Assembly: GCA_025463005.1 (NCBI GenBank)
Contig: JAOAPR010000097.1
Coordinates: 1 to 64,000, forward strand
DNA from: Bryobacterales bacterium
Lineage (GTDB): Bacteria > Acidobacteriota > Terriglobia > Bryobacterales > Bryobacteraceae
Length of the DNA: 64,000 nucleotides
Direction: 5' to 3'
Shown here: positions 3,973 to 64,000 of the stretch, one piece after another
How positions within the stretch are numbered: position 1 is the stretch's first letter
Layout: each line of letters begins with the position of its first letter
Translations under genes and position numbers: made by a program
The notes under the pieces: model-generated
The model's database searches: none
Told to the model about the DNA's origin: nothing
What the model saw: only the letters and a program-made list of their open reading frames with translations

Positions 3973-5838
3973 TTACTCGACGCCGAACGCCAGCAGCACA
4001 TTGCCGCCCATCCCGCCTCGCGCCGGATATCCTGACACAGAAAACAGCATGCCTCCCGCCACCACGGGGCCGGCGACATCGATAGCTCCGCCGTGTCCTG
4101 CGACGCCGTTCACGGTCTTAAACTCCCGGGCGGTGTCGAAGTCCCAGATGATGTGCCCGTTCGTGGTGGAATAGCCTCGCAGGTGGCCGTCTTCCGAGCC
4201 CGAGAACACCGCGCCCGGAATCGCCGTGATGGCCGCCGATTGCGCCGGACTGCAGGGCCGCCGGTCCCCGCAGCCGGGGGGCGGAGTCTGCCACATTCGT
4301 TCGCCATTATCCACGCGAAATGCGAAAAGGCCGCCGCCCTTGTTCGGATCGAGCTGATAGGTCCGGTCGTTGCTGCCGGATTTCAGAGCCACTTCGAAGC
4401 GAATGTCGGAAAGCGCGACGTAAACATTGCGGCCGTCGCTGGCCGGCCCCCACTCGATGCCGCCGACGGTGCCGCCCTCGCCGATGCGGGCCTGCCACAG
4501 CGTCTGACCTTTTCGGTCCGGGTCGACGGCGTAGATCACGGCGGACTTCTGCCCCAAGAGAAGCGCCCGCTTCGGCCCTTTCTCGTTCGGAGGCAGCGAA
4601 ACCAGAATGGCGGACGCCGCGAAATCGAAATCCGGACCTTCCGTATCAGGGCAATTCACTTTCCCGGGAAGCTGGCACGAACTGTTCCAGGCGTCTTTCG
4701 CGGTGAGCTGTTTCGACCACAGAATCTCGCCGCTGGACAATCGCAAAGCGACCACCGCATCACTCATCGAGGTAGCCGGATCAGAATAATTGTCGCCGGT
4801 GGTGACGTACATCGTGTCTCGCTCCGGATCGAGCGTGGGGGCGGTCCACACGCCCGCGCCCGAAGGTCCGAATACCGCCGCGCCGTGTTTGCTCTTGGAA
4901 CGCTCCTTGGCGAGCTCAGGGATCATGTATCTCTTCCAGATGGTCTTTCCGGTAGCCGCATCCAACGCCGCCTCGCTGCCACGAAACGTGCAGCACATGT
5001 AGCCGGCAGAAACCGATAGAGCCTCCTCGCGGGACGCCGCGCCCACGTACAATCGCCCCTGGTGGAACACAGGAGTTGCGGTTACCGTAGACGCCGGATG
5101 CTCATCGGGGCGCATCCGCCACAACTGTTTTCCGGTGGCGCCGTCGAGAGCGTACACGTATCCCGCGGAATCGCCGAAGAAGATCGCCGGATTGCCCGCG
5201 ATCTCTCCCGTGGCGATTCCGGAGCGAACCTGCGCCTGAACCATCGTCGACCAGTGGACGCATCCGGAGACTGCGTCGAGCGCGCACACGCTGCCGTCCT
5301 GGCTGCCGACGAAAACTCTGCCGCGATACACGGCCGGTTGCGAGCGCAGGGTGGACGTATCCGGGAAAGCGAACGCCCACTTCAAGGCGAGGCGCGGCAC
5401 GGCGTCGGCTTGCAGGCCGGCCTCATTCGCTGGAAGGAAGCGTGTATTCGCGAGCCCGCCTCCCCAACTGGTCCAACCCTGTGTCTGGCCCGGTCCGTCT
5501 TTCCATGGAGCACTCGCCGGGCCCCCTGCAGGGCATGGATTCGCGATCTCCTCGCGGCGCCGTTCCACCGTGACAGCGGTCCCGAGGAAGTTCGCGACCT
5601 TCATGCGTTCGTCGCCGGAAAGCGGCGCGGCCTGCGATTTCATGATTCCGCTTTCGAGGGTCCGCAGAATCGCCGCGGGCGACATGGTCTTCAGCGCCGC
5701 GATTTGAGGAATGCGGGCTTCCGCTCCCGACGCGGCCTGGTGGCAGGAGGCGCAGTTCTTTTGAAAGAGTTGCTCGGCATAGGGATCGGCGGCGGACAGA
5801 ATTATGGGCGCGATCAGAGACAGATACAGGTATTTCAT
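3973..5838 (-). CDS. PQQ-type beta-propeller dehydrogenase with N-terminal cytochrome c domain
   Basis: About 621 residues. The start MKYLYLSLIAPIILSAA is a Sec signal peptide; a longer frame would run into nuoB. A heme c site CASCH follows at residues 29-33, with a plausible distal Met in a small cytochrome fold to about residue 95. The remainder has the repeated beta-strand pattern of quinoprotein propellers (GRVFVGSQDGSVCALDA, GYVYALDGATGKQLW, GGLFAFRVDNGERMW). Fusion of cytochrome c with a PQQ propeller resembles polyvinyl-alcohol dehydrogenase and related periplasmic alcohol oxidases. The substrate is unknown. No PQQ biosynthesis genes are in the window. Confidence 0.85.
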   Translation of the reverse strand: MKYLYLSLIAPIILSAADPYAEQLFQKNCASCHQAASGAEARIPQIAALKTMSPAAILRTLESGIMKSQAAPLSGDERMKVANFLGTAVTVERRREEIANPCPAGGPASAPWKDGPGQTQGWTSWGGGLANTRFLPANEAGLQADAVPRLALKWAFAFPDTSTLRSQPAVYRGRVFVGSQDGSVCALDAVSGCVHWSTMVQAQVRSGIATGEIAGNPAIFFGDSAGYVYALDGATGKQLWRMRPDEHPASTVTATPVFHQGRLYVGAASREEALSVSAGYMCCTFRGSEAALDAATGKTIWKRYMIPELAKERSKSKHGAAVFGPSGAGVWTAPTLDPERDTMYVTTGDNYSDPATSMSDAVVALRLSSGEILWSKQLTAKDAWNSSCQLPGKVNCPDTEGPDFDFAASAILVSLPPNEKGPKRALLLGQKSAVIYAVDPDRKGQTLWQARIGEGGTVGGIEWGPASDGRNVYVALSDIRFEVALKSGSNDRTYQLDPNKGGGLFAFRVDNGERMWQTPPPGCGDRRPCSPAQSAAITAIPGAVFSGSEDGHLRGYSTTNGHIIWDFDTAREFKTVNGVAGHGGAIDVAGPVVAGGMLFSVSGYPARGGMGGNVLLAFGVE

Positions 5839-5891: not shown

Positions 5892-6446
5892 TTAAGCCAG
5901 GTTCAGGACCTTCGCCGTCACGTTCTTTTCCTGCTCGATCTTCTTCTGCAGGAGCATGATGGCGTAGATCAACTGTTCCGGCCGCGGCGGGCAGCCGGGG
6001 ACGTACACATCCACCGGGATCACCTGGTTCACGGGCACTAGGGCGTAATTCGAAAACACGCCGGTGGAGGTCGCGCAGGCGCCCATCGAGATTACCCACT
6101 TGGGCTCGGGCATCTGCTCGTACAGGCGGCGGATCACCGGGGCCATTTTGTTGGAAACACGCCCGGCGATGATCATCAGATCGCTTTGCCGCGGCGAGCC
6201 GCGCATCACCTCCGCGCCAAAACGCGAAATATCGTAGCGCGAGGCGATCATCGACATCATCTCGATAGCGCAGCAGGCCAAGCCGAAGCTCATCGGCCAG
6301 ATCGCGTTCTTGCGAGCCCAGTTGATCACCTTGTCGAGCGACGTCGTGAGGATGGATTGTCCGAACTCGTCCAGCGGTTCAGGTTCATCGTCGACGCGCG
6401 CGAATAACGCGGGCGGCTGGCTCAATTGAAATTTGGGCTCTTCCAC
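5892..6446 (-). CDS. nuoB: NADH-quinone oxidoreductase subunit B
   Basis: A 184-residue NuoB/PSST subunit of respiratory complex I, which carries the N2 [4Fe-4S] cluster next to the quinone site. The tandem cysteines appear in [11 protein letters not shown], with further ligands in [10 protein letters not shown] and [12 protein letters not shown]. It starts with GTG (VEEPKFQL). No other nuo subunit is adjacent: a PQQ dehydrogenase gene lies downstream and a divergent malQ upstream, so this is an isolated copy, either an extra paralog or a gene detached from the main nuo operon. Confidence 0.95.
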
Positions 6447-6480
6447 AACACGATTATCTCACGGGCGCTTACACTGGAGT

Positions 6481-8562
6481 TTGCCGTCCTATCGGGAAGC
6501 TTTGGAGCGCGCCGCCGCACGGTGGGGCGTGGAACTGGAGTACACCGACACCTGGGGCCGGACCCACGCGGCCTCGGAGGAAACCCTGCGCGGAGTTCTC
6601 GCGGCTCTGGGAGTTCCCGCGGGAAGCGAACAAGAGCTGGAACGCGCCAGCACTGAGCGCGATCTGGCCCGGTGGTCACGCGCGTTCGATCCCGCCGTAG
6701 TCGTATCCGAAGACTCCGATTCGATCGCGCTGCGCATTCCCGCTGAGCGCGCGGGCGCATCGGTCAAGCTTGAATTCCGGTGGGAGAACGGCGAAATCGA
6801 GCACCACTGGTTCTGGCTGCCCGAGCTGGCGGACATCGAGCGGATCTCGATAGCAGGACGGGAATTCATCTCGAAGCGCGTGCCTTTGCCCGCCCTGCGG
6901 CTCGGCTATCACGATCTGCGAGTGTACTGGATGAAAGAGCCGGCGCAGGAGGCATTCGAGGATTCCCGTTTCATCGTGTCCCCGCGGCGGGCGCGCGACG
7001 TCGACGGGCGCATGGCCGGAGTAGCCCTCAGCCTGTACGGCATGCGGTCGGCGCGCAACTGGGGCTGCGGCGACTTTACGGATCTTCGCGCGATGATCGA
7101 AACGCTGGCTCCGTCCGGCGCGGCCTTCATCGCGCTGAATCCGCTGCATGCGATTGCCAACCGCCAGCCGTACAACACCAGTCCCTATCTTCCGCTGTGT
7201 TCGATGTATCGCAATTATCTGTATCTCGATGTCGAGCGCGTGCCGGGATTCCTTAAAAGCGACGCGTCTGCAACGGAGATCGAAGCGCTGCGCGCCACCG
7301 AGCTAGTGGAATACGAGCGGGTTGCCGAGGTCAAGCTGCGTGCGCTGCGCCAGGCGTTTGGGCGATTCCAAGCGTCCGGCAAAACCGTCGAATTCGAGGA
7401 ATTCGCGCGGGTTGAGGGCAGGCTGCTGCACGATTTTGCGGTATTCTGCGCGCTGGATGAGCACATCCACCAGCGGAATCCGGAGATCTGGTTGTGGAAA
7501 GATTGGCCGCCGGAGTATCAGGATCCACAGTCCGAAGCCGTCGCGAAATTTGCCCAACAACATCGCGACGATGTCCTGTTTTACAAGTTCTTGCAGTGGC
7601 AAGTGGACCGGCAGCTAGCCGAGGCGCAGAGTCACGCGATCGCGTGCGGGATGAAGATCGGGCTGTATCACGATCTGGCGCTGGCCACTGATCGGTTCGG
7701 CGCGGACCTGTGGATGAATCGCCCGTTTTATGCAAACGGCGCTCGCGTAGGGGCTCCCCCGGATGAGTTGGCTCCCGGCGGCCAGGACTGGGGATTTCCG
7801 CCGCCCAACCGCGAAGCTCATCGCGAAAACGGCTACGAGCTATTCGCGCAATCGATCCGCAAGAACGCGCGGCACGGGGGCGCGCTGCGCATCGATCACG
7901 TGATGGGGTTCTTCCGCCTATTCTGGATTCCGGATGAGCTCACCGCCGTTCAAGGGGCCTACGTGAAGGATTATGCCGAGGACCTGCTTGGCATCCTGGC
8001 GCTCGAGAGCGTGCGCGGCGGATTCATCGTTATCGGAGAGGATTTGGGGACGGTGGAATGGTCGGTGCGCCAAAAGCTAACCGAGATGGGCATTCTGGGG
8101 TACCGGCTGCTGTGGTTCGAGAAGAATCCGGACGGAAGTTTTCGCCTGACGCAGGAGTATCCGGCGCAGGCGGCGGTGTCGACCACCACTCACGATCTGC
8201 CGACGCCGGCAGGATTCGTCGAAGGGCGCGACATCGAAGCGCGCCGAGCTGCGGGACTCGTCGACGAGGCCGGCTATCGGCATCAATGGGCCGCCCGGCG
8301 GGAAGAACTCGTGCGGCTGCAAGACGCGCTGCAGCGGGCTGGATTCCCCGGCGATCCGCTGGGATTCGTGCTGGCGACGCCGTGCGCGCTGGCGATCGTT
8401 AATCAGGAAGACCTTACGCACGAGACCGAGCAGCAGAACCTCCCTGCGAGCACGTGGCAGCATCCCAACTGGCGGCGGAAGATGAAGGTTGCGGTGGAAG
8501 AGATGGGTCCGATCGCCGCGGATCTGCGTCGGCGACTGGACCGCGCCGGCCGCCTGTTGTAA
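6481..8562 (+). CDS. malQ: 4-alpha-glucanotransferase (amylomaltase)
   Basis: A GH77 disproportionating enzyme of about 693 residues that transfers maltodextrin segments between glucans. Family landmarks are visible: LYGMRSARNWGCGDFTDL, the NTSPYLPLCSMYRN region, the nucleophile region IGLYHDLALATDRFGADLW, LRIDHVMGFFRLFWIP, VIGEDLGTVEWSV and the STTTHDLPTPAGFV end of the active site. The start is uncertain. TTG at 6481 (LPSYREALE) leaves the N-terminus typical of long bacterial MalQ, but its GGAG is only one base away. An in-frame TTG at 6433 would overlap nuoB. No ATG is available. Confidence 0.9.
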   Translation: MPSYREALERAAARWGVELEYTDTWGRTHAASEETLRGVLAALGVPAGSEQELERASTERDLARWSRAFDPAVVVSEDSDSIALRIPAERAGASVKLEFRWENGEIEHHWFWLPELADIERISIAGREFISKRVPLPALRLGYHDLRVYWMKEPAQEAFEDSRFIVSPRRARDVDGRMAGVALSLYGMRSARNWGCGDFTDLRAMIETLAPSGAAFIALNPLHAIANRQPYNTSPYLPLCSMYRNYLYLDVERVPGFLKSDASATEIEALRATELVEYERVAEVKLRALRQAFGRFQASGKTVEFEEFARVEGRLLHDFAVFCALDEHIHQRNPEIWLWKDWPPEYQDPQSEAVAKFAQQHRDDVLFYKFLQWQVDRQLAEAQSHAIACGMKIGLYHDLALATDRFGADLWMNRPFYANGARVGAPPDELAPGGQDWGFPPPNREAHRENGYELFAQSIRKNARHGGALRIDHVMGFFRLFWIPDELTAVQGAYVKDYAEDLLGILALESVRGGFIVIGEDLGTVEWSVRQKLTEMGILGYRLLWFEKNPDGSFRLTQEYPAQAAVSTTTHDLPTPAGFVEGRDIEARRAAGLVDEAGYRHQWAARREELVRLQDALQRAGFPGDPLGFVLATPCALAIVNQEDLTHETEQQNLPASTWQHPNWRRKMKVAVEEMGPIAADLRRRLDRAGRLL

Positions 8563-8563
8563 G

Positions 8564-8605
8564 AGGCGGATTTATCCGCCTTCACGAGGTGGACAAGCCC
8601 ACCTC
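8564..8605. terminator. Two tandem hairpins between convergent genes
   Basis: The 43 bases between malQ and dnaJ hold two perfect 7-bp hairpins, AGGCGGA/TCCGCCT (loop TTTA) and GAGGTGG/CCACCTC (loop of six). There is no clear T-run. They probably act as a bidirectional terminator, or are a copy of a repetitive extragenic palindrome. Confidence 0.6.
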
Positions 8606-9730
8606 CTACATGAAGTAATCTTTTACCTTGTCCAGGATACTCTTCTCTTCCGGCTCATTCTCCGCCGGGAGCATGTCTCTGAGCTCTTCGAGCATACGGC
8701 GCTGGTCGCGGGTCAGCTTTTGCGGAACCTTCACCGCCAGGTGAACGTAAAGATCGCCGCGCGCGCTGGAGTTGAGATGCGGGACGCCGAACCCCTTCAG
8801 GCGCAGCCGCGAGCCGGCCTGCGATCCCTCTGGTACCTTCACGTTCTGAAGACCGTCGAACGTCAGAACGTCCACCGAGCATCCCAGAGCCGCCTGCGCG
8901 ATATTTATCGGAACAGTACAGTGCAGGTCATATTCGTGACGCTCGAAGATGGGGTGCTCGGCCACTTTCAGCACTACGAACAGATCGCCTGGAGGGCCGC
9001 TGTTTGCGCCGGGCTGTCCTTCCTGAGACAAGCGGAGCTGCGTGCCGTTGTCCACGCCGGCGGGAATGTTAACTTTGAGCTTTCGTTCGCGGCGCTGGTA
9101 ACCCTGGCCGCGGCACTCCTTGCACGGACGGCGGATAATCTGACCGCGCCCGCTGCATGTGCTGCACGTGCGCCGGACTGAAAGAAACGCCTGCTGATAA
9201 ATCACTTCGCCGCGGCCGCGGCAAGTAGGGCAGGTCACGACACCGTCGTCGGGCTCGGCGCCTTTGCCCTTGCAGCGCCCGCACTCTTCCATGCGCGGCA
9301 CCTGGATATCGACGGCCAGGCCGCGCATCGAATCTTCGAAGCTGATATCGAGGTCGTAGCGGACGTCTTCGCCGCGTTGAGGACGCGTGCGGCGCTGGCG
9401 CGATCCGGAGTTGAACACTTCGCCGAATCCGAACATCTCGTTCAGGATGTCGCTCAAATCTGGGAATCCGTTGGCATCGAAGCCTCCGCCGGCGGCGGTG
9501 GGCACGCCCTGGTGGCCGAACCGGTCGTAGGCGGCGCGCTTCTGCGGATCGCTCAGGACGCTATAGGCCTCAGCGGCTTCCTTGAACCGTTCTTCGGCGT
9601 GCGTATCGCCGGGATTGCGGTCGGGGTGATGCTGCAAAGCGAGCTTCCGGTAGGCTCCCTTGAGGACCTGATCGTCGCAGTCCCGGACTACACCGAGGAC
9701 TTCATAATAGTCTCTCTTTGCCACGCTCAC
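8606..9730 (-). CDS. dnaJ: Chaperone protein DnaJ
   Basis: Hsp40 co-chaperone that stimulates DnaK ATPase. Domains in order: J domain with the HPD triad (HHPDRNPGD, about residues 34-42), a Gly/Phe-rich linker (GGGFDANGFPDL and FGFGEVF), then four CxxCxGxG zinc motifs (CGRCKGKG, CPTCRGRG, CSTCSGRG, CKECRGQG), then the substrate-binding beta domains. At 374 residues it is a full type I DnaJ. The start is GTG, with a second GTG two codons later. It is the last gene of the hrcA-grpE-dnaJ set, 3 bases after grpE. dnaK is not in the window. Confidence 0.97.
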   Translation of the reverse strand: MSVAKRDYYEVLGVVRDCDDQVLKGAYRKLALQHHPDRNPGDTHAEERFKEAAEAYSVLSDPQKRAAYDRFGHQGVPTAAGGGFDANGFPDLSDILNEMFGFGEVFNSGSRQRRTRPQRGEDVRYDLDISFEDSMRGLAVDIQVPRMEECGRCKGKGAEPDDGVVTCPTCRGRGEVIYQQAFLSVRRTCSTCSGRGQIIRRPCKECRGQGYQRRERKLKVNIPAGVDNGTQLRLSQEGQPGANSGPPGDLFVVLKVAEHPIFERHEYDLHCTVPINIAQAALGCSVDVLTFDGLQNVKVPEGSQAGSRLRLKGFGVPHLNSSARGDLYVHLAVKVPQKLTRDQRRMLEELRDMLPAENEPEEKSILDKVKDYFM

Positions 9731-56993: not shown

Positions 56994-57191
56994 ATGAAAG
57001 CCCGTAGTACAGCTTATGTACGCGCGTCAATCAGCTTCCCGTCCGGTATTTACCAGAATCTCCAAAAGCTGGCGAAGCAAAAAAAAGTGTCTCTAGCGTG
57101 GGTTGTGCGAGACGCGGCGGAAAGGTACGTTGCTGAGGAAACGGTAGAGAGCGATGGAAAGCTAGGACGATTTGTCCGCGCTACCAAATGA
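56994..57191 (+). CDS. Ribbon-helix-helix DNA-binding protein (65 aa)
   Basis: CopG/Arc-like fold: the strand (YVRASISFP) and two helices (GIYQNLQKLAKQKKV, LAWVVRDAAERYV) are easily seen. Its stop shares ATGA with the next gene. As first gene of the cluster it is the likely local repressor, acting on its own operon. Confidence 0.8.
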   Translation: MKARSTAYVRASISFPSGIYQNLQKLAKQKKVSLAWVVRDAAERYVAEETVESDGKLGRFVRATK

Positions 57192-59395
57192 CCAAGAAGA
57201 ACAGGATGACACCTCTCTTCATACTAGCCGCGATAGTGGCAGCGCCAGTCGTCTTCTGGTTCGTACGGCGGCGAGCAAAACCGCGCGCGGTCAAAGAAAA
57301 CACGGAAGCTGCATCGGCAACAACCTCCTCGGGCGAAGTTGAACTCGAAACGTCACCATCCGAAGTTCCGCGGCCTCCAGAAAGTTCGGTATTGGTTGCA
57401 GAGGAGGAAGGCGCGCCAGCCAAGCTGGAGGAGCTGCCATCCGAAACTCCTCAGCCCGTTGATGCGGCTCAATCTCTGGATAAGCCTGAGAGCAATATTT
57501 CCCTCATACAAGGCGATGCCGCGATACTCGACGCTGCACATGTCGAAAATAACAATTCGTCGGTGATTGAGATAACCGAACCGTCCGTTATGCCGGAAGA
57601 TGACCGGCCGACGGAACACCAGGCCGCTGCTGCTGCTGTTGCGGGCGCCGAGCCGGAGACTTCACAGGTCTACACCACGACAGTAGTGTTGTTTCCCGCA
57701 GATAATGTGCGCGCGGATGAGACAGAAGAGGCGCTGGCCAGGCCGGAAGTGAAACAGTCGGCAGAGTTGCAGGCAGGACCAGCCGGCGTTCAGAGCGAAG
57801 CAGATATTTGTGAAGAGCCTGATGGCGCGGGCACTGAGGAGAATGGGCCAATCGCACCGTCTCCGCAAGTTTCAGACGACGTTCCATTCTTGTCACCAGC
57901 GGAGACATTTGCCGGGCATCAAGAAACCATAGCTCACGATCCTCCGGCGAGCGGAGAACCGGAAACCCAGCACGTCGCCGCCTACACGGCAATGGCTCTA
58001 ACTGTCTCGCCTCCGCCTGAGGCCGGCTTCGCGCAAGTGCTTTCTTCCGAGATAGGGGAACCCTCTGAAGGAGATACCGGAGAAGGACAGCATTTATACC
58101 GGCCACCTCCTCAAAGAGCACCACGGCAGACGCCTAGGCCAGTTACTCAATCGTTGTCGCGCTCCACTTCCGATTTGGCCCTCGACATTCGTGTTCAGGT
58201 GAGATTTGACCGTTTCGGCTTCTGCGAGATCCGGCTTTTGCCGGAGCGTATGGCGGAGATGGATAACGAGGTAGAGGTGAAGACTGGTGGAACCGAGCTT
58301 CATCTCGTGGCGCAGGAGGAATGGTATCAGGACCTCACGTTCGAAAACATTGGGGACCGTCTGCGGCGGGGACTTGAACTAAAAGGGCTTCTTGCAGACC
58401 ATCGTCGCGCCCGGTGGCTCTTAACGGGGCGGGACATTTATATACTTGCGAACCAGCAACGCGCCAGCGGCTTCGTCTCCACGACACGGCTTGTTTTGGG
58501 CCGGTCCCATGTTGTGCTGTGCGCGGCCGAATTACTTCCGCAAGTCGAGGCCGCTTTGAAGGATGCCGGATGTCAAGGATATACGAAACTGGACCAAGCG
58601 CACGGGATTCCGTCCGGATGGATTGGACTTCGTGGTGTGACGCCGTCGATAGCTGTGCCATTGGAGCCGGGCATCGATGCGTTTTATGCCGTTAAACCGG
58701 CGCCGGATATTGAAATCGAATTTGAAGGCGGCGTGTGTTTACGCAACTCGATTTGGCTGGCCGGTTTTCCTCCACGGATCAAATTGCTCGGAGACATAAG
58801 CGCGCCGGTAAAGGTCCTGATCGACGGCAAGGAAGCCGTCGCTGCGGGTGATGGCTCATTGGTTGGGGACGGCTATGACCAGCCCGGACAACACCTCGTT
58901 TACTGCGAGGGCTTGTCCTGTTCCCGCTCGTACTCGATTGAAGATCCTCCGGATGTTTGGGAGGAATGGCCGGCCTATCACTTCGGACAAGCTGAAATCT
59001 GCGGGCCACGCGTTCACATTCTTCCTCAAGCTGCGGGCTGGCGCATCCTTAGCGTTCCAATGTCGAACCCGCTTCTGCTTGGTGCTGAACCCGGCCAAAT
59101 CTTCCGCTGTTCGCCTCGAAGCGTTAAGAACTGGAAAGGGTTTGTTCCCTTCGATGTTGTCTGGGCACTGCCTGCCCATCCGTATATCTGCGATAAGAAG
59201 ACTGCGCGTATTATTCAGTTTGCTCAAACTCCGCTAGTGCTTCCGGGTCCCAAGAAACATGTACTCGGTTGGTGCGCGGCCATCCTCGAAGCATCGGCAA
59301 AGGGTCTTCAAATTGAAAATGCCTCCTCCGATGGGACGGTTCTCTGGAAGGAATATAAAAAGGCGGCGCGGAACCTCCGGAGGGCTGCGCGGTGA
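57188..59395 (+). CDS. Membrane-anchored protein of unknown function (735 aa), defence-cluster gene 1
   Basis: A membrane segment at residues 7-25 (MTPLFILAAIVAAPVVFWF) is followed by RRR, then a long acidic Pro/Glu/Ser-rich region (about 35-310) that should be unfolded, then a globular domain of about 420 residues (from DIRVQVRFDRFGFCEIRLLP; later GIPSGWIGLRGVTPSIAVPL). No catalytic motif is recognised; the C-terminal domain is mostly beta. Its ends overlap both neighbours by ATGA, so it is translated with the RHH gene and the next gene. The anchor would hold the system at the membrane. No family known. Confidence 0.8.
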   Translation: MTKKNRMTPLFILAAIVAAPVVFWFVRRRAKPRAVKENTEAASATTSSGEVELETSPSEVPRPPESSVLVAEEEGAPAKLEELPSETPQPVDAAQSLDKPESNISLIQGDAAILDAAHVENNNSSVIEITEPSVMPEDDRPTEHQAAAAAVAGAEPETSQVYTTTVVLFPADNVRADETEEALARPEVKQSAELQAGPAGVQSEADICEEPDGAGTEENGPIAPSPQVSDDVPFLSPAETFAGHQETIAHDPPASGEPETQHVAAYTAMALTVSPPPEAGFAQVLSSEIGEPSEGDTGEGQHLYRPPPQRAPRQTPRPVTQSLSRSTSDLALDIRVQVRFDRFGFCEIRLLPERMAEMDNEVEVKTGGTELHLVAQEEWYQDLTFENIGDRLRRGLELKGLLADHRRARWLLTGRDIYILANQQRASGFVSTTRLVLGRSHVVLCAAELLPQVEAALKDAGCQGYTKLDQAHGIPSGWIGLRGVTPSIAVPLEPGIDAFYAVKPAPDIEIEFEGGVCLRNSIWLAGFPPRIKLLGDISAPVKVLIDGKEAVAAGDGSLVGDGYDQPGQHLVYCEGLSCSRSYSIEDPPDVWEEWPAYHFGQAEICGPRVHILPQAAGWRILSVPMSNPLLLGAEPGQIFRCSPRSVKNWKGFVPFDVVWALPAHPYICDKKTARIIQFAQTPLVLPGPKKHVLGWCAAILEASAKGLQIENASSDGTVLWKEYKKAARNLRRAAR

Positions 59396-60333
59396 CGCCA
59401 AATGAACTTCTGTTATGGCTTTCGGCGCGTAAGGCGGGCTCTTGGTCGCAATTCCGGGGAGCGGTGGCACACCTCGATTTGGCGAGCAGCACCCCGGAGC
59501 CCGAAGAGGACGCAGGGCAGCATCTCCATCAACGGGTCCGCTTCAACCTCGAAAGGCTCGGCCATATCGAATTTGGCGCGGAGGAAAGCGGCGAAGGTTG
59601 GCGGGTGGTGCCTCCAACTTTGGCGCTCTTCCATTACGACGGCCGGGCTACGGGCATTTTATGTGGAGCGCGTGCCCTCCCTCTCTTGGAGAGAATTGAA
59701 CGGGCGGCGAACGAACTGGCGTTCGAACGTGTACCGCACCCGGATTGCCCGGACGTTCTGCGAATACACGCGCCAAATTCGCAAATCCTGATTGACCTGG
59801 CTCAACAGGAAGGCATTTCCTGCCAAGCTGATACTCCTACGGTTTTACTTTCCCACCTCCCATCCGTTGATTCCATCAAAGGCTGGAATCGCGCACCAAT
59901 GCCCGTCGCGGGCAACGATTGGGATGTGGAGCAATTCGTCGTCGAAAGGAAAACGATGAAGTGGCGGACGATAACGCTTCAGGAAGCCAACGCGCCGGGA
60001 GTTCAGGGGCTATTCCGTATCACGCGCTTTCAACGGCCACAGTATTTTCTTCGTGAAGGCCGGGAAACGATCAAACTCCCCGGTCCAGTTGCGAAGTACT
60101 ACACGCTGTTCCGCCTGCGTCGGCGTGTCCTAAAATATGACCGCAAAGAGCGTTCCCTTACCTTGCTGGCAATCTTCCGTCCGCCATTACTGACCGAGCG
60201 GGGTTTGATTCTTTGTTCCGGTTTCCCTCCCTCCGTCAGTAATGTGCGCGGCCGGCCAACATTGACCTATCGCGATATTCCCGAAGAAGTAGCGGGCATG
60301 ACCGCTGAAGTTCTTAAACAGGATTTAATATGA
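59392..60333 (+). CDS. Unknown protein (313 aa), defence-cluster gene 2
   Basis: Starts MTPNELLLWLSARKAGSWSQ. The first 75 residues look like a winged helix (FRGAVAHL, then RVRFNLERLGHIEF and GWRVVPPTLALF). The rest is mixed alpha/beta with IKLPGPVAKYYTLFRLRRR and a conserved-looking ILCSGFPPSV near the end. It overlaps both neighbours by ATGA. Function unknown. Strict coupling to the helicase suggests a subunit or DNA-recognition partner. Confidence 0.8.
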   Translation: MTPNELLLWLSARKAGSWSQFRGAVAHLDLASSTPEPEEDAGQHLHQRVRFNLERLGHIEFGAEESGEGWRVVPPTLALFHYDGRATGILCGARALPLLERIERAANELAFERVPHPDCPDVLRIHAPNSQILIDLAQQEGISCQADTPTVLLSHLPSVDSIKGWNRAPMPVAGNDWDVEQFVVERKTMKWRTITLQEANAPGVQGLFRITRFQRPQYFLREGRETIKLPGPVAKYYTLFRLRRRVLKYDRKERSLTLLAIFRPPLLTERGLILCSGFPPSVSNVRGRPTLTYRDIPEEVAGMTAEVLKQDLI

Positions 60334-63300
60334 GCAACCCTATCGCACTTTTCGACGACTTGCGGGATATGTATCTGCGCTACCTGGACAGCCCGTTCGA
60401 CTTGCGCTACCCGGAACTCGTTGCCGAACGGCGCAACTTGCTGAGTGTCGATGGGCGGCTTTTCCGCCAGCCTTTGATCGAGCCGATTCCTGCCTACCAG
60501 TCAAGTAATCAGACATTCCAGGCAATTGCGCAAGCCCGTCTTGGCGGTTCTTGGAGTAACACGGAGATCGCTGACCTTGCTGATTTCGTGTCGCTTGAGC
60601 TCTTCCCGCCGAACCGGTCCCCCTACGCGCATCAAGACCAGGTCTTCGCGGAATCAGTTGTCAACGGGAATGACGTTATTGTGACCACGGGCACAGGCTC
60701 TGGAAAAACCGAATGCTTTCTTTTGCCTGTCATAGCGGCGCTCATCCGTGAGTCCTCGGCTTGGGGGCAACCAGGTCAGCGAACTCCGCGCTGGGATTGG
60801 TGGAACCATCGCCAGAACGCGACGACAAACCGGTGGCTGCCGCGCATTCCGCAACGGAGTCACGAAGACCCGGCAGTGCGGCCGGCAGCGATGCGCGCTA
60901 TCATCCTTTACCCGCTCAACGCGCTTGTCGAGGACCAGCTCGGACGGATGCGAACGGTTCTCGACAGTGACAACGCGCGGAATTGGCTGCAAGCGAGACG
61001 CGCTGGCAACCGCTTTTATTTCGGCAGGTATACCGGGCGCACGCCTGTGTCAGGAGACCGGAATTCATCGAAGGAAACCAAGCTTAGAAAAGAACTTCGC
61101 GACATGGAACAGGAAGCCCAGCAGGTTGCGGGGCATTCGGCGGCGCGGTTCTTTCCCCGCATGGATGGCGGAGAAATGTGGTCCCGGTGGGACATGCAAG
61201 ACGATCCGCCGGACGTCCTCATCACCAACTACTCCATGATGAACATCATGTTGATGCGCAGCCTGGAGATGCCGGTTTTCGAACTCACCCGGCAATGGCT
61301 GGAGGCAGACCGCTCGCGGGTCTTCCATTTGGTGGTAGACGAACTTCACACATACAGAGGCACGCCGGGAACAGAAGTTGCCTACCTTATCCGCGTGCTG
61401 CTCGACCGCTTGGGCTTGTCCCCGAACTCCAGCCAATTGCGCATTATCGCGTCCAGCGCATCATTGACGGGTGACGCCTCGGGTCTTGATTATCTGGAAG
61501 CTTTTTTTGGGCGCGACCGCGGTCATTTTCAAATTATCGGCGGCAACACAGTGAGTCCCAATGCCGCCTCCGTTCAGATGGTGGCAAATCATGCTGCGGC
61601 TCTGCGCGATTTGGGACAAAGCCTGCGCGTGTCGGCCGCACCTCCGCTGCAAGCCGCCGCACAGACTTTTCACGCTGCAGTTGGAGCCCCGGCTGTGCCT
61701 GCCGGGGCTTCGCCGGAGCAGATTCTTTATACCAGCCTCGAACATCTTCAGGCAGCTGACGGACTGCGGATAGCTTGTATGACCGGAGGCCCCGGAACCC
61801 CGCCTCAACCCCGCTTCCCGGCCGATATCGGCGGCCAGCTCTTCCCGGCGCTTCCGCCATCCGAACGCTTAGATGCGGTGGACGGGTTGCTCGCTGGATT
61901 GTGCAATACGCGAAACTCGCAGGACGCCGCCTTGTTACCCGTGCGCGCGCATTTGTTCTTCAGAAACCTTCAAGGTTTGTGGGCTTGTTCGAACCCTCAG
62001 TGCAGTGTTGCACCCGCTCGAACATTCCCTTGCCCGGTAGGCCAGCTCCATTACACCCCGGCGCTCACCTGCGGATGCGGGTCAAGAATAGTGGAGTTGC
62101 TTTATTGCGAGCCGTGCGGCGAGGTGTTCCTGGGAGGCTACAGGAGGCGGGACGTCAACAATCCGAACGAGTGGTATCTAAGTCCGGACCATCCGGACCT
62201 GGAGGCCTCGCCGGACATGGCGTCAGTTGACCGTGATTATGCGAGATACGCTGTATTTTGGCCCGCCGAGAACGGGACGCAGCCAGCTACTCCTCAGTGG
62301 ACCCAGGATGGTGTTCAGCGGCGGTGGCAACCGGCGTCTTTCATTCCAGCAGAAGGCAAGGTCGTGCACGGCGGAGGCGCTCAGGCAAGGCGGGGATTCT
62401 TGTACCATGTCCCGCAGATGCACGGGGCCAACGGCGAAATTTTCGATCCCCGTCCGCAAGGGCTTGCGGCAAGCGCAGGCAAAGCGTATCCGTCCCGTTG
62501 CCCCCGGTGCGATACGAATTGGGTGAGGCGAAACATCGGATCGCCAGTGAGGACGCAGCGAACCGGCTTCCAGAAGTTGGCACAGATTCTCTCAGATGTT
62601 TTGCTCCGTGAAGTAGGTTCTGAGAATCCGGGCGGGCGAAAATTGGTTGTTTTCTCCGACAGCCGGCAGGACGCGGCAAAATTATCCGCCGGTATGAGGT
62701 TCGCCCATTACAGGGACTCTGTTCGCCAGGCGCTCGCTGCGGCCTTGGTTCATCAAGGCGCTGGTGTTCTGGCTTTCATCAAGCAACTCGGTGGTCAAAC
62801 GCTGACGCCGGAAGAGCAAACTGCCGCTAATGCTTTTGAAGCTGACTATCCGGCCGAGATGGGTACTCTATCGATGGCCCAAGGCGCGATGGCAAACCGG
62901 CCGTCGCCGGCCTTTCCGCCGTTGACTTATCAGCGGGCCGCTCAACAGATTCAACTCCGTGCTGTCCAGGGACCTCACCCGATTTCCCAGCTCGCCATAG
63001 ATGTGTCTTCGCAGTTGTTACGACAAGGTATCAATCCCGGAGGCTTCACCCAGCGGGTCCTTTGGACGAATGTAGATGATCAGGAGGGACACTGGCGGGA
63101 CCTCTATAACTGGCCAGCAGGAATGGAACCGGCGGCGAAGCCAAACAGCCAGCTTGATGCAAACCAGCAAATTCATCTGACGCGCATAAGAGATGAGTCC
63201 CTTGAAGAACTGATGGACATCGTTTTTGCATCTGGGCAACGCAGCTTGGAGTCCTTATGCATTGCGCTGCCTACGACCGATCGCCTTCGCTTTCCCGCAC

Positions 63301-64000
63301 CGAACGCGGATGTGCAAGAGGCTGCCGATGGCATCATTCGCCTTTTGGGGTCGCGCAAGAAGCTTTCTTCGCATGATTGGGCTTCACCCCCACAGAATAC
63401 GCCTGCCTACGTGCGGAACTACTTGCAGGCCGTTGCCAACCGCAGGGGACTGAGTGCCGCGACGCTTGAAGCAGATGTGATTACTTACCTAACCAATTCA
63501 GGCTGTCTTACTCAGTTCATTCTGCAAGCCACAGCCTTATGCCTCCTTCCGCCCGGAGCCGGGGCGCAATTCTATGAATGCCCCCGTTGCCGGAGAATTC
63601 ATCTCCATCCCGCAGGCGGCGTCTGTACCGATTGCCTGACGACGTTGAGCCCCCCGCAGCCACTCACATCGGCGCAGTTGATTTCTGATTACTACAGCTA
63701 CCTTGCTACCCAAACTGACGAGCTGTTCCGCCTGAACTGCGAGGAACTCACGGGCCAAACAAATAAAGCTGACGGACGTACAAGGCAAAGGCTCTTCCAG
63801 AATGTCGTATTACCAAACACTGAAAATGAGCGGACCGATCCCATCGATTTATTGAGCGTCACCACGACGATGGAAGCGGGCGTGGATATCGGGGGGTTGT
63901 TGGCCGTCATGATGGCAAACATGCCGCCGATGCGGTTCAATTATCAGCAAAGAGTGGGCCGCGCCGGACGGCGCGGCGCGGGCCTCTCTGTTGCGCTGAC
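60330..64000 (+). CDS. Very large SF2 DEAD/DEAH-like helicase (runs off the right edge), defence-cluster gene 3
   Basis: At least 1,223 residues from MSNPIALFDDLRDMYLRYLD, with no stop before the edge. Motif I GTGSGKT (121-127), Ia AIILYPLNALVEDQL, II DELH (about 337), III SSASLTG, motif IV VVFSDSRQDAAKL, V TTTMEAGVDIGG and VI QQRVGRAGRRG (about 1206). Three cysteine clusters (about 550-600 with YCEPCGEVFLGG, 725, 1085-1105) probably bind zinc. The plan matches the huge helicases of defence systems (DUF1998-linked DrmA, DruE, DpdJ) rather than repair helicases. ATP-driven DNA or RNA remodelling is expected. Overlaps gene 2 by ATGA. Confidence 0.88.
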   Translation, partial: MSNPIALFDDLRDMYLRYLDSPFDLRYPELVAERRNLLSVDGRLFRQPLIEPIPAYQSSNQTFQAIAQARLGGSWSNTEIADLADFVSLELFPPNRSPYAHQDQVFAESVVNGNDVIVTTGTGSGKTECFLLPVIAALIRESSAWGQPGQRTPRWDWWNHRQNATTNRWLPRIPQRSHEDPAVRPAAMRAIILYPLNALVEDQLGRMRTVLDSDNARNWLQARRAGNRFYFGRYTGRTPVSGDRNSSKETKLRKELRDMEQEAQQVAGHSAARFFPRMDGGEMWSRWDMQDDPPDVLITNYSMMNIMLMRSLEMPVFELTRQWLEADRSRVFHLVVDELHTYRGTPGTEVAYLIRVLLDRLGLSPNSSQLRIIASSASLTGDASGLDYLEAFFGRDRGHFQIIGGNTVSPNAASVQMVANHAAALRDLGQSLRVSAAPPLQAAAQTFHAAVGAPAVPAGASPEQILYTSLEHLQAADGLRIACMTGGPGTPPQPRFPADIGGQLFPALPPSERLDAVDGLLAGLCNTRNSQDAALLPVRAHLFFRNLQGLWACSNPQCSVAPARTFPCPVGQLHYTPALTCGCGSRIVELLYCEPCGEVFLGGYRRRDVNNPNEWYLSPDHPDLEASPDMASVDRDYARYAVFWPAENGTQPATPQWTQDGVQRRWQPASFIPAEGKVVHGGGAQARRGFLYHVPQMHGANGEIFDPRPQGLAASAGKAYPSRCPRCDTNWVRRNIGSPVRTQRTGFQKLAQILSDVLLREVGSENPGGRKLVVFSDSRQDAAKLSAGMRFAHYRDSVRQALAAALVHQGAGVLAFIKQLGGQTLTPEEQTAANAFEADYPAEMGTLSMAQGAMANRPSPAFPPLTYQRAAQQIQLRAVQGPHPISQLAIDVSSQLLRQGINPGGFTQRVLWTNVDDQEGHWRDLYNWPAGMEPAAKPNSQLDANQQIHLTRIRDESLEELMDIVFASGQRSLESLCIALPTTDRLRFPAPNADVQEAADGIIRLLGSRKKLSSHDWASPPQNTPAYVRNYLQAVANRRGLSAATLEADVITYLTNSGCLTQFILQATALCLLPPGAGAQFYECPRCRRIHLHPAGGVCTDCLTTLSPPQPLTSAQLISDYYSYLATQTDELFRLNCEELTGQTNKADGRTRQRLFQNVVLPNTENERTDPIDLLSVTTTMEAGVDIGGLLAVMMANMPPMRFNYQQRVGRAGRRGAGLSVAL

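Follow-up and report, generated by a model that had tools for sequence, protein, structure and literature searches.

The stretch of DNA analyzed here, called the window below, is 64,000 nucleotides long and forms the start of a 149,808-base contig (JAOAPR010000097.1) from a Bryobacterales bacterium (GenBank assembly GCA_025463005.1). Near its end lie three contiguous genes, with no gene between them, whose sequences make it practically certain that they are a Druantia type IV defense system in the order DruF-DruL-DruE. What appears to be new is the form of DruF, in which a predicted membrane anchor and a long arm take the place of the N-terminal domain that other DruFs carry. The interpretation developed below, of a Druantia type IV in membrane-tethered form together with a proposed mechanism, is as a whole one that we regard as reasonably probable.

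Payne et al. (2021; PMC8565338) describe type IV as DruE plus DruF with DruL replacing DruM and DruG, with 168 instances in 11 phyla. The visible part of the window's DruE matches the PADLOC model PDLC00051 DruE4 over residues 2–1223 (1210.6 bits, E 0), and DruL matches PDLC00057 DruL4 over residues 2–312 of 313 (E 5.6e-25) and also the last quarter of the PADLOC DruF2 model (E 2.5e-9). DruF is matched by eight PADLOC DruF models with E values of 7.2e-6 to 1.2e-3, best over residues 420–493, and by a hidden Markov model (HMM) built here with E 6e-103 over residues 314–730. No match to DruG was found among the four window proteins and four downstream proteins scanned with PADLOC, where the best 25 matches were considered for the helicase and the methylase. 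A second Druantia IV copy lies on contig C118 of the same genome, a binned assembly that is 96% complete and 4% contaminated, and the two DruEs are 79% identical in protein and 73% in DNA.

The original prediction, made by a model from the letters of the window, had taken the locus for a candidate uncharacterized defense system whose two middle genes match no Druantia subunit. It was right that this is a defense operon with a giant helicase, and its four reading frames were found with the positions and sizes it gave. The claim of novelty fails: PADLOC identifies the middle proteins as DruF and DruL of Druantia type IV, and that they should be known subunits of a named system was one of two outcomes that the prediction itself had listed as speaking against it. 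The other, a helicase that occurs mostly without the middle genes, is not what we see; both DruF and DruL are present at 71 of 89 non-redundant DruE loci, in a sample chosen for likeness to the window's helicase, and at 63 of the 80 loci of the species scan. An uncharacterized system unrelated to the named ones could point to the fact that Pfam and NCBIfam give no match to DruF or DruL; these databases recognize only the helicase of the three, so the middle genes could not be placed by eye. The DruL4 and DruF matches in PADLOC, the gene order and the DruE tree go the other way, and we treat this alternative as already refuted, with a negligible probability. The DruF-DruL-DruE order is found again in other genomes and so goes beyond chance.

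The 89 loci come from a search with a DruE alignment against one genome per species (84,980 species), from which the best 80 of at least 560 confirmed stretches were taken, a sample that leans toward helicases like that of the window, together with four loci on viral contigs and five from genome searches. Duplicates were removed (L020 = L083, L023 = L080), near-copies were kept (L067/L077, L079/L105), and L019 and L021, which are without DruE, stand outside the 89. DruF and DruL were found with HMMs built here through iteration.

Other DruFs open with a conserved N-terminal domain of ~250 residues (70 frames, 69 non-redundant), which is all-helical in the structure model of the fused protein of L058. 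The domain is present in 51 of the 59 frames that have a DruF core and a complete start, and the eight that lack it belong without exception to the window's clade (the window itself, the second copy, L017, L024, L025, L031, L078 and L080). A profile of the domain gave no match in five of five clade genomes (G000, G622, G802, G051 and G071) while it matched both control genomes (1.8e-87 and 3.5e-80), so in those genomes the domain has not moved to another gene. A full-length DruF with its N-terminal domain, which is a trait of the models and not of the published definition, is thus not what the window's clade has, and because the domain is absent we file the locus as a type IV variant.

In place of the domain, the window's DruF begins with a hydrophobic segment, defined as a 19-residue hydropathy of at least 1.6 near the start. 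Its hydropathy is 2.33 over residues 8–26, with a net charge of +3 before and +4 after. As annotated, six of the eight clade DruFs have such a segment, with a 19-residue mean of 1.91–3.25, and all six carry more net positive charge after it than before it, the preceding flank being just 0–11 residues. Among frames with the N-terminal domain and a complete start, one of 67 reaches 1.6 (L099, 1.78). Three of three further relatives of the same family, added later and counted apart (L118–L120), also have the segment, with values of 2.20, 2.52 and 2.22; the contigs of L119 and L120 end before DruE. It is the predicted hydrophobicity of the segment that is kept and not its sequence.

The segment is followed by an acidic arm that is predicted to be disordered. 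Across the clade it measures 201–373 residues, is rich in P, E, S, T and A and has a net charge of −18 to −48; in the window the net charge is −38 over 288 residues. The AlphaFold model of the window's DruF (30 sequences) has a helix at residues 10–29, ~297 low-confidence residues and a confident core; the model as a whole has a mean predicted local distance difference test (pLDDT) score of 67.1 and a predicted template modeling (pTM) score of 0.48. Its pLDDT is below 50 for residues 30–302 and 313–326, and ~28–42 over most of 30–302. Across five pairs of relatives, identity is 25–39% in the arm and 64–78% in the core, and the ratio of nonsynonymous to synonymous substitution rates (dN/dS) is 0.37–0.68 for the arm, where it could be estimated in three of the five pairs, versus 0.10–0.23 for the core. 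Such divergence in arm and segment suits a tether that is kept for its length, charge and greasiness. The membrane anchor and long disordered arm that had been proposed for the 735-residue protein are therefore upheld as predictions from hydropathy and the AlphaFold model, as is the remark that anchoring through an unfolded arm is unusual for such systems, with the anchor again a predicted one.

Structure models were made of the L058 fused protein and of the window's DruF. The L058 model (mean pLDDT 81.5, pTM 0.77) has the helical N-terminal domain, a beta-rich core and a mixed alpha/beta DruL part, and it contains an immunoglobulin (Ig)-like sandwich at residues 470–567 (best Z 9.0 with VIA-align, root-mean-square deviation (rmsd) 2.6, 87 residues aligned). 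The VIA-align matches are chiefly Ig- or fibronectin-type sandwiches and concern one stretch. In the modeled core of the window's DruF, an Ig-like sandwich is possible at about residues 507–589. With Foldseek, neither the window's DruF nor the fused L058 model had a match at E ≤0.001, and DruF and DruL profiles compared with the PDB returned no fold (best E 0.32 and 0.41). The winged helix seen earlier at the start of DruL is an impression by eye with no fold match. No conserved acid/His/Lys set was found among the columns of DruF and DruL at 75% identity; at that level W, G, P and L make up most of the conserved columns, joined by N and Q in the N-terminal domain, and DruL has two conserved arginines, two tyrosines and one serine.

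The layouts of the 89 loci bear on where the DruF core resides. They were labeled by simple script rules as split (26 loci, including at least five that fit poorly: L041, L052, L066, L075 and L095), fused DruF-DruL (17), short DruF with long DruL (12), window-like (8), N-terminal domain only, which is type II-like (9), none (7), DruF cut by the contig end (4), N-terminal domain plus DruL with a weak core (4) and DruL only, also contig-cut (2). The fused loci (L018, L039, L047, L057–L060, L062, L068, L076, L081, L089, L090, L093, L096, L097 and L107) come from Actinomycetota, Pseudomonadota, Bacillota, Bacteroidota and others, and the PADLOC DruF2 model spans the L058 fused protein end to end at 1535 bits. 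At 17 of 89 loci, then, DruL shares one frame with DruF and so is not an entirely independent subunit. None of the 17 fused chains has a hydrophobic start, 11 are without any stretch of at least 1.6, and the other six have one beyond residue 80. Chains of this kind are cytosolic, and the DruF core and DruL should therefore be cytosolic as well; the net positive charge that follows the segment in six clade DruFs agrees with this. These same observations speak against a DruF that is exported and whose core monitors the periplasm for injecting phage, in that the core is fused with both DruL and the N-terminal domain in those 17 chains and the positive charge comes after the segment. Ig-like folds are frequent outside cells, and a short N-terminus with a hydrophobic stretch behind it looks like a signal anchor; even with these points in its favor, we find export very unlikely.

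In the 12 loci of the short-DruF variant (L027–L030, L033, L035, L040, L042, L048, L079, L105 and L106), mostly from cyanobacteria and Chloroflexota, DruF has about 565 residues in many and DruL ~440; the DruF end is ~100 residues shorter and DruL has an extra N-terminal ~130 residues. The idea that the missing DruF end has moved to DruL was dropped, as profile comparison gave a probability of 0.2 (E 0.39) and two controls gave 0.2 and 0.3.

A DruE tree was built from 86 of the 89 loci by a quick search under LG+G4, leaving out L075, L080 and L092 for their cut helicases; many of its rows have skewed composition. On this tree a single change accounts for the window-like state if the loci whose DruF is cut are set aside, and eight loci, seven window-like and L026 with its cut DruF, form a clade with a support of 100. 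Its named members are from Verrucomicrobiota, Planctomycetota (two) and Pseudomonadota (two, one being L026). L080 lies on the same contig as L023 of G622, a Candidatus Sulfopaludibacter of the Acidobacteriota that is listed in the window's family. The occurrence of the clade in four phyla points to horizontal transfer, with the named members being mostly binned assemblies in which the phylum label may be wrong for a single contig; the safest assignments are a Gemmataceae scaffold (4.9 Mb) and G071 (4.4 Mb).

Several observations weigh against the membrane-tethered interpretation. The L080 DruF has its hydrophobic stretch (1.93) upstream of an in-frame stop, the remainder of the frame being open, and the start of L017 is weakly hydrophobic (1.00), with no stretch of at least 1.6. 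The sequence of the segment is poorly conserved (23–80% identity, dN/dS 0.2–0.81 over 23–30 codons), the divergence of segment and arm would equally suit a region of little function, and the anchor is a prediction from hydropathy and the AlphaFold model. The single-domain Ig-type matches of the window model are weak (Z ≤6.1 with VIA-align; two adhesin rows with Z 6.8 and 6.5 have an rmsd near 30), and the match of DruF to curated models is weak and confined to the core. The window-like state has a single origin, so its recurrences are not independent gains. Finally, no active nuclease was found; the C-terminus of DruE keeps H-P-L-W and R but is without the D...ExK set. The exceptions L017 and L080 and the poor conservation of the segment favor a plain cytosolic Druantia IV, in which the hydrophobic start would be a relic or would bind a partner and the loss of the N-terminal domain would be what matters. 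We consider this unlikely, in that six of eight clade DruFs and the three added relatives retain the hydrophobic start even though the adjoining arm has diverged to 25–39% identity between relatives. A DruF that is tethered to the membrane and has a cytosolic core is the likely alternative to it.

In the mechanism that we propose for the tethered form, DruF would sit in the inner membrane with its core facing the cytosol, and the core together with DruL, which are a single polypeptide in other lineages, would act as a joint sensor and adaptor. The arm would give DruF-DruL a reach of up to tens of nanometers from the membrane; ~297 residues fully stretched come to ~100 nm by arithmetic (0.36 nm a residue), and a relaxed chain is much shorter. 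That reach could cover the sites of phage DNA entry and of some virion assembly. DruF-DruL, on encountering a phage trigger or DNA of abnormal structure, would then load or license DruE, which would translocate on phage DNA and block its processing. The assignment of DruF-DruL as sensor/adaptor and DruE as motor would be by analogy with Druantia III, where, according to PMC13192584, DruE is proposed to act on intermediates containing single-stranded DNA, and DruH, with its Ig-like parts, is proposed to sense phage structural proteins. In mycobacteria, according to PMC13316683, a minor tail protein activates the Druantia III system. That DruE is positioned at sites of DNA entry or assembly is a tentative suggestion. 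Also tentative, and somewhat less probable than not, is the full account in which a domain swap made a cytosolic machine membrane-tethered and spread through four phyla, with DruF-DruL as a single sensor and DruE stationed at entry or virion sites.

The anchored DruF might instead be the killer, its assembly perturbing the membrane in abortive infection with DruE as the sensor. Single-anchor effectors are known from abortive systems. A section heading of PMC13316683 has type III Druantia defending against phage via abortive infection in M. smegmatis. The clade DruFs are, however, without a second hydrophobic stretch of at least 1.6, and 66 of 67 DruFs with the N-terminal domain have no start segment, so membrane attack is not the common mechanism of these proteins; we find a killer DruF quite improbable.

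The domain swap is a natural experiment in which one core works either next to a helical domain or next to what is probably a membrane tether, so the role of the N-terminal domain may be placement or assembly. The predicted tether may station the defense at the cell membrane. DruL, named in 2021 as the hallmark of type IV, is elsewhere the tail of a single DruF-DruL unit, and such fused genes blur the boundary between Druantia types II and IV. Detection tools that require a full-length DruF may overlook the window's clade.

Table 1. Features of the Druantia type IV locus, in positions of the window
Feature	Positions	Strand	Description or basis
Ribbon-helix-helix (RHH)-like gene	56994..57191	+	65 aa; lineage-specific neighbor
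DruF, variant with predicted membrane anchor	57188..59395	+	735 aa; PADLOC DruF models and HMM built here
Predicted single transmembrane segment of DruF (residues 8–29)	57209..57274	+	Hydropathy; model helix 10–29
Acidic arm of DruF (residues 30–326), predicted disordered	57275..58165	+	pLDDT, net charge, N-terminal domain HMM negative
Folded DruF core (residues 327–735), beta-rich	58166..59392	+	Model core from 328, pLDDT mostly >90
DruL	59392..60333	+	313 aa, GTG start; PADLOC DruL4
DruE, superfamily 2 (SF2)/YprA-family helicase	60330..64000	+	Open at window end, 1,223 aa visible
Walker A of DruE, GTGSGKT (residues 121–127)	60690..60710	+	Invariant in 5-sequence alignment
DELH box of DruE (residues 337–340)	61338..61349	+	Invariant in 5-sequence alignment
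Motif VI of DruE, QRVGRAGR (residues 1207–1214)	63948..63971	+	Invariant in 5 sequences

On the full contig, DruE is complete at 1,858 residues and ends at base 65906, 1.9 kb beyond the window; its full frame is at 5331–10907 of L003, the fetched stretch that holds the window's locus. In 77 DruEs, the K and final T of Walker A, the D, E and H of the DELH box and the Q and arginines of motif VI are all 100% conserved, and several cysteine pairs are near-invariant. The domains recognized are DEAD and Helicase_C, with MZB at residues 1646–1738 scoring 23.5 bits against a cut-off of 24.2. Bell et al. (PMC12458937), who do not name type IV, regard the Vsr-like C-termini of DruE in Druantia I and II as inactive.

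All three gene junctions of the locus have a four-base overlap. The original prediction had every overlap as exactly ATGA, and this holds for the first and third; the second is GTGA because the 313-residue gene begins with GTG. The gene at the head of the row is present as predicted, and its assignment to the RHH family is weak, with Pfam scores of 20.7 bits for RHH_5 and 19.3 bits for RHH_1, both below their cut-offs. The proposal of a four-gene unit does not stand: among the eight clade loci with DruE and an assessable DruF, the window alone has an RHH homologue before DruF and the other seven have none, so RHH was rejected as a fourth subunit, and the gene is probably a local regulator rather than a core subunit. 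In the close relatives L118 and L120, an RHH homologue also precedes DruF. The L118 locus (6335–9363) is decayed: its RHH gene has a four-base overlap, its DruF is broken into two frames and its DruL has 235 residues, and DruE was not found there. RHH-related genes or fragments also lie directly before cytosine methylases (L003 10998–11165, L004 5231–5476 and L119 656–859), as if one RHH regulator family served several defense modules of this bacterial family.

A cytosine methylase lies 287 bases downstream of the window's DruE, with DruM2 as its best match (E 6.9e-141), and is accompanied by a Vsr nuclease and a NOV_C-domain protein that matches the candidate PDC-S36 (2.7e-110). Grouped as it is with Vsr and one more gene, the methylase may belong to a methylation module of its own. 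As a fixed subunit the methylase was rejected for the clade, being present at four of eight loci. Within the fetched flanks, whose lengths differ between loci, a cytosine methylase is found at 38 of 89 loci: fused 13/17, split 12/26, type II-like 7/9, short-DruF 0/12, weak-core 1/4, none-class 1/7 (a weaker match, 4e-24), cut DruF 0/4 and DruL only 0/2. At seven loci it shares the strand of DruE and lies 1.0–1.1 kb downstream of it.

Upstream of the window's RHH gene are a helix-turn-helix protein, ArdC and a ParB-like gene, which is consistent with the mobile, defense-rich setting that had been claimed. The second copy (L004 258–17558) is flanked by a methylase with a NotI-like endonuclease, a TIR protein, an integrase and a class II prokaryotic Argonaute (5.2e-256), in a dense defense island. 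On the minus strand of L003 (14225–19000) is a pair of genes, one of 305 residues with a sub-threshold HEPN match and the other of more than 1,249 residues with weak HEAT-like matches only.

DruL4 is rare, matching in four of 101 relatives and three of 396 genomes of the phylum, the window's own included in each. One of the three, a weak match in G136, was dropped after a re-test (L021) found no DruF, DruL or DruE. A second DruL model matches three of 299 genomes of the class, and the DruF core seven of 257 genomes of the order, again including the window's own; it was this search with the core that yielded L118–L120. Carriage of the window's clade by plasmids or phages was rejected, there being no DruE at ≥60% identity in 72,556 plasmid and 50,697 phage records; a DruL search of plasmids returned three cyanobacterial plasmids at 23–24% identity. 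Four IMG/VR viral contigs (L104–L107) bear Druantia II/IV-like loci, which may be true phage carriage or host DNA misassigned as viral. A contig of a Heimdallarchaeota metagenome-assembled genome (L064 5623–15778) holds DruF, DruL and DruE, with ~1.1 kb between DruL and DruE.

Among the open-licence PubMed Central papers listed, of which one mentions DruF along with Druantia, we found nothing on the mechanism of Druantia II/IV or the roles of DruF and DruL, and nothing relevant on a tether or on Druantia and DruE together with "membrane-bound"; the CoCoNuT paper (PMC11090510), in the portion available, names Druantia type III only. Among known systems, DISARM has a YprA-family helicase in common with the window, with a weak DrmA match of 27.1 bits. 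DISARM pairs DrmA with a separate DrmB of the DUF1998 type. The window differs from it in having the helicase and a probable zinc-binding part (the MZB stretch) in one protein, and DrmB is unmatched among the scanned window and downstream proteins. Druantia type III (DruH-DruE) likewise has a partner with an Ig-like region beside DruE, as described in PMC13192584, but the window has no DruH match among its four proteins in PADLOC, and its helicase scores at most 293 bits against the DruE3 models versus 1210.6 against DruE4.

With Druantia type II the window has in common the DruE-type helicase and a DruM2-like methylase downstream, and the DruF2 model covers DruF and DruL as one chain, as in L058. 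The window differs in that DruF and DruL are two genes and DruG is unmatched among the eight scanned proteins. The closest likeness is to Druantia type IV (PMC8565338), which likewise unites DruE, DruF and DruL; no DruG turned up in the proteins scanned, and the DruF-DruL-DruE order is common to the window and other loci. It is within this type that the window's DruF stands apart, with a predicted anchor and a long disordered arm replacing the N-terminal domain.

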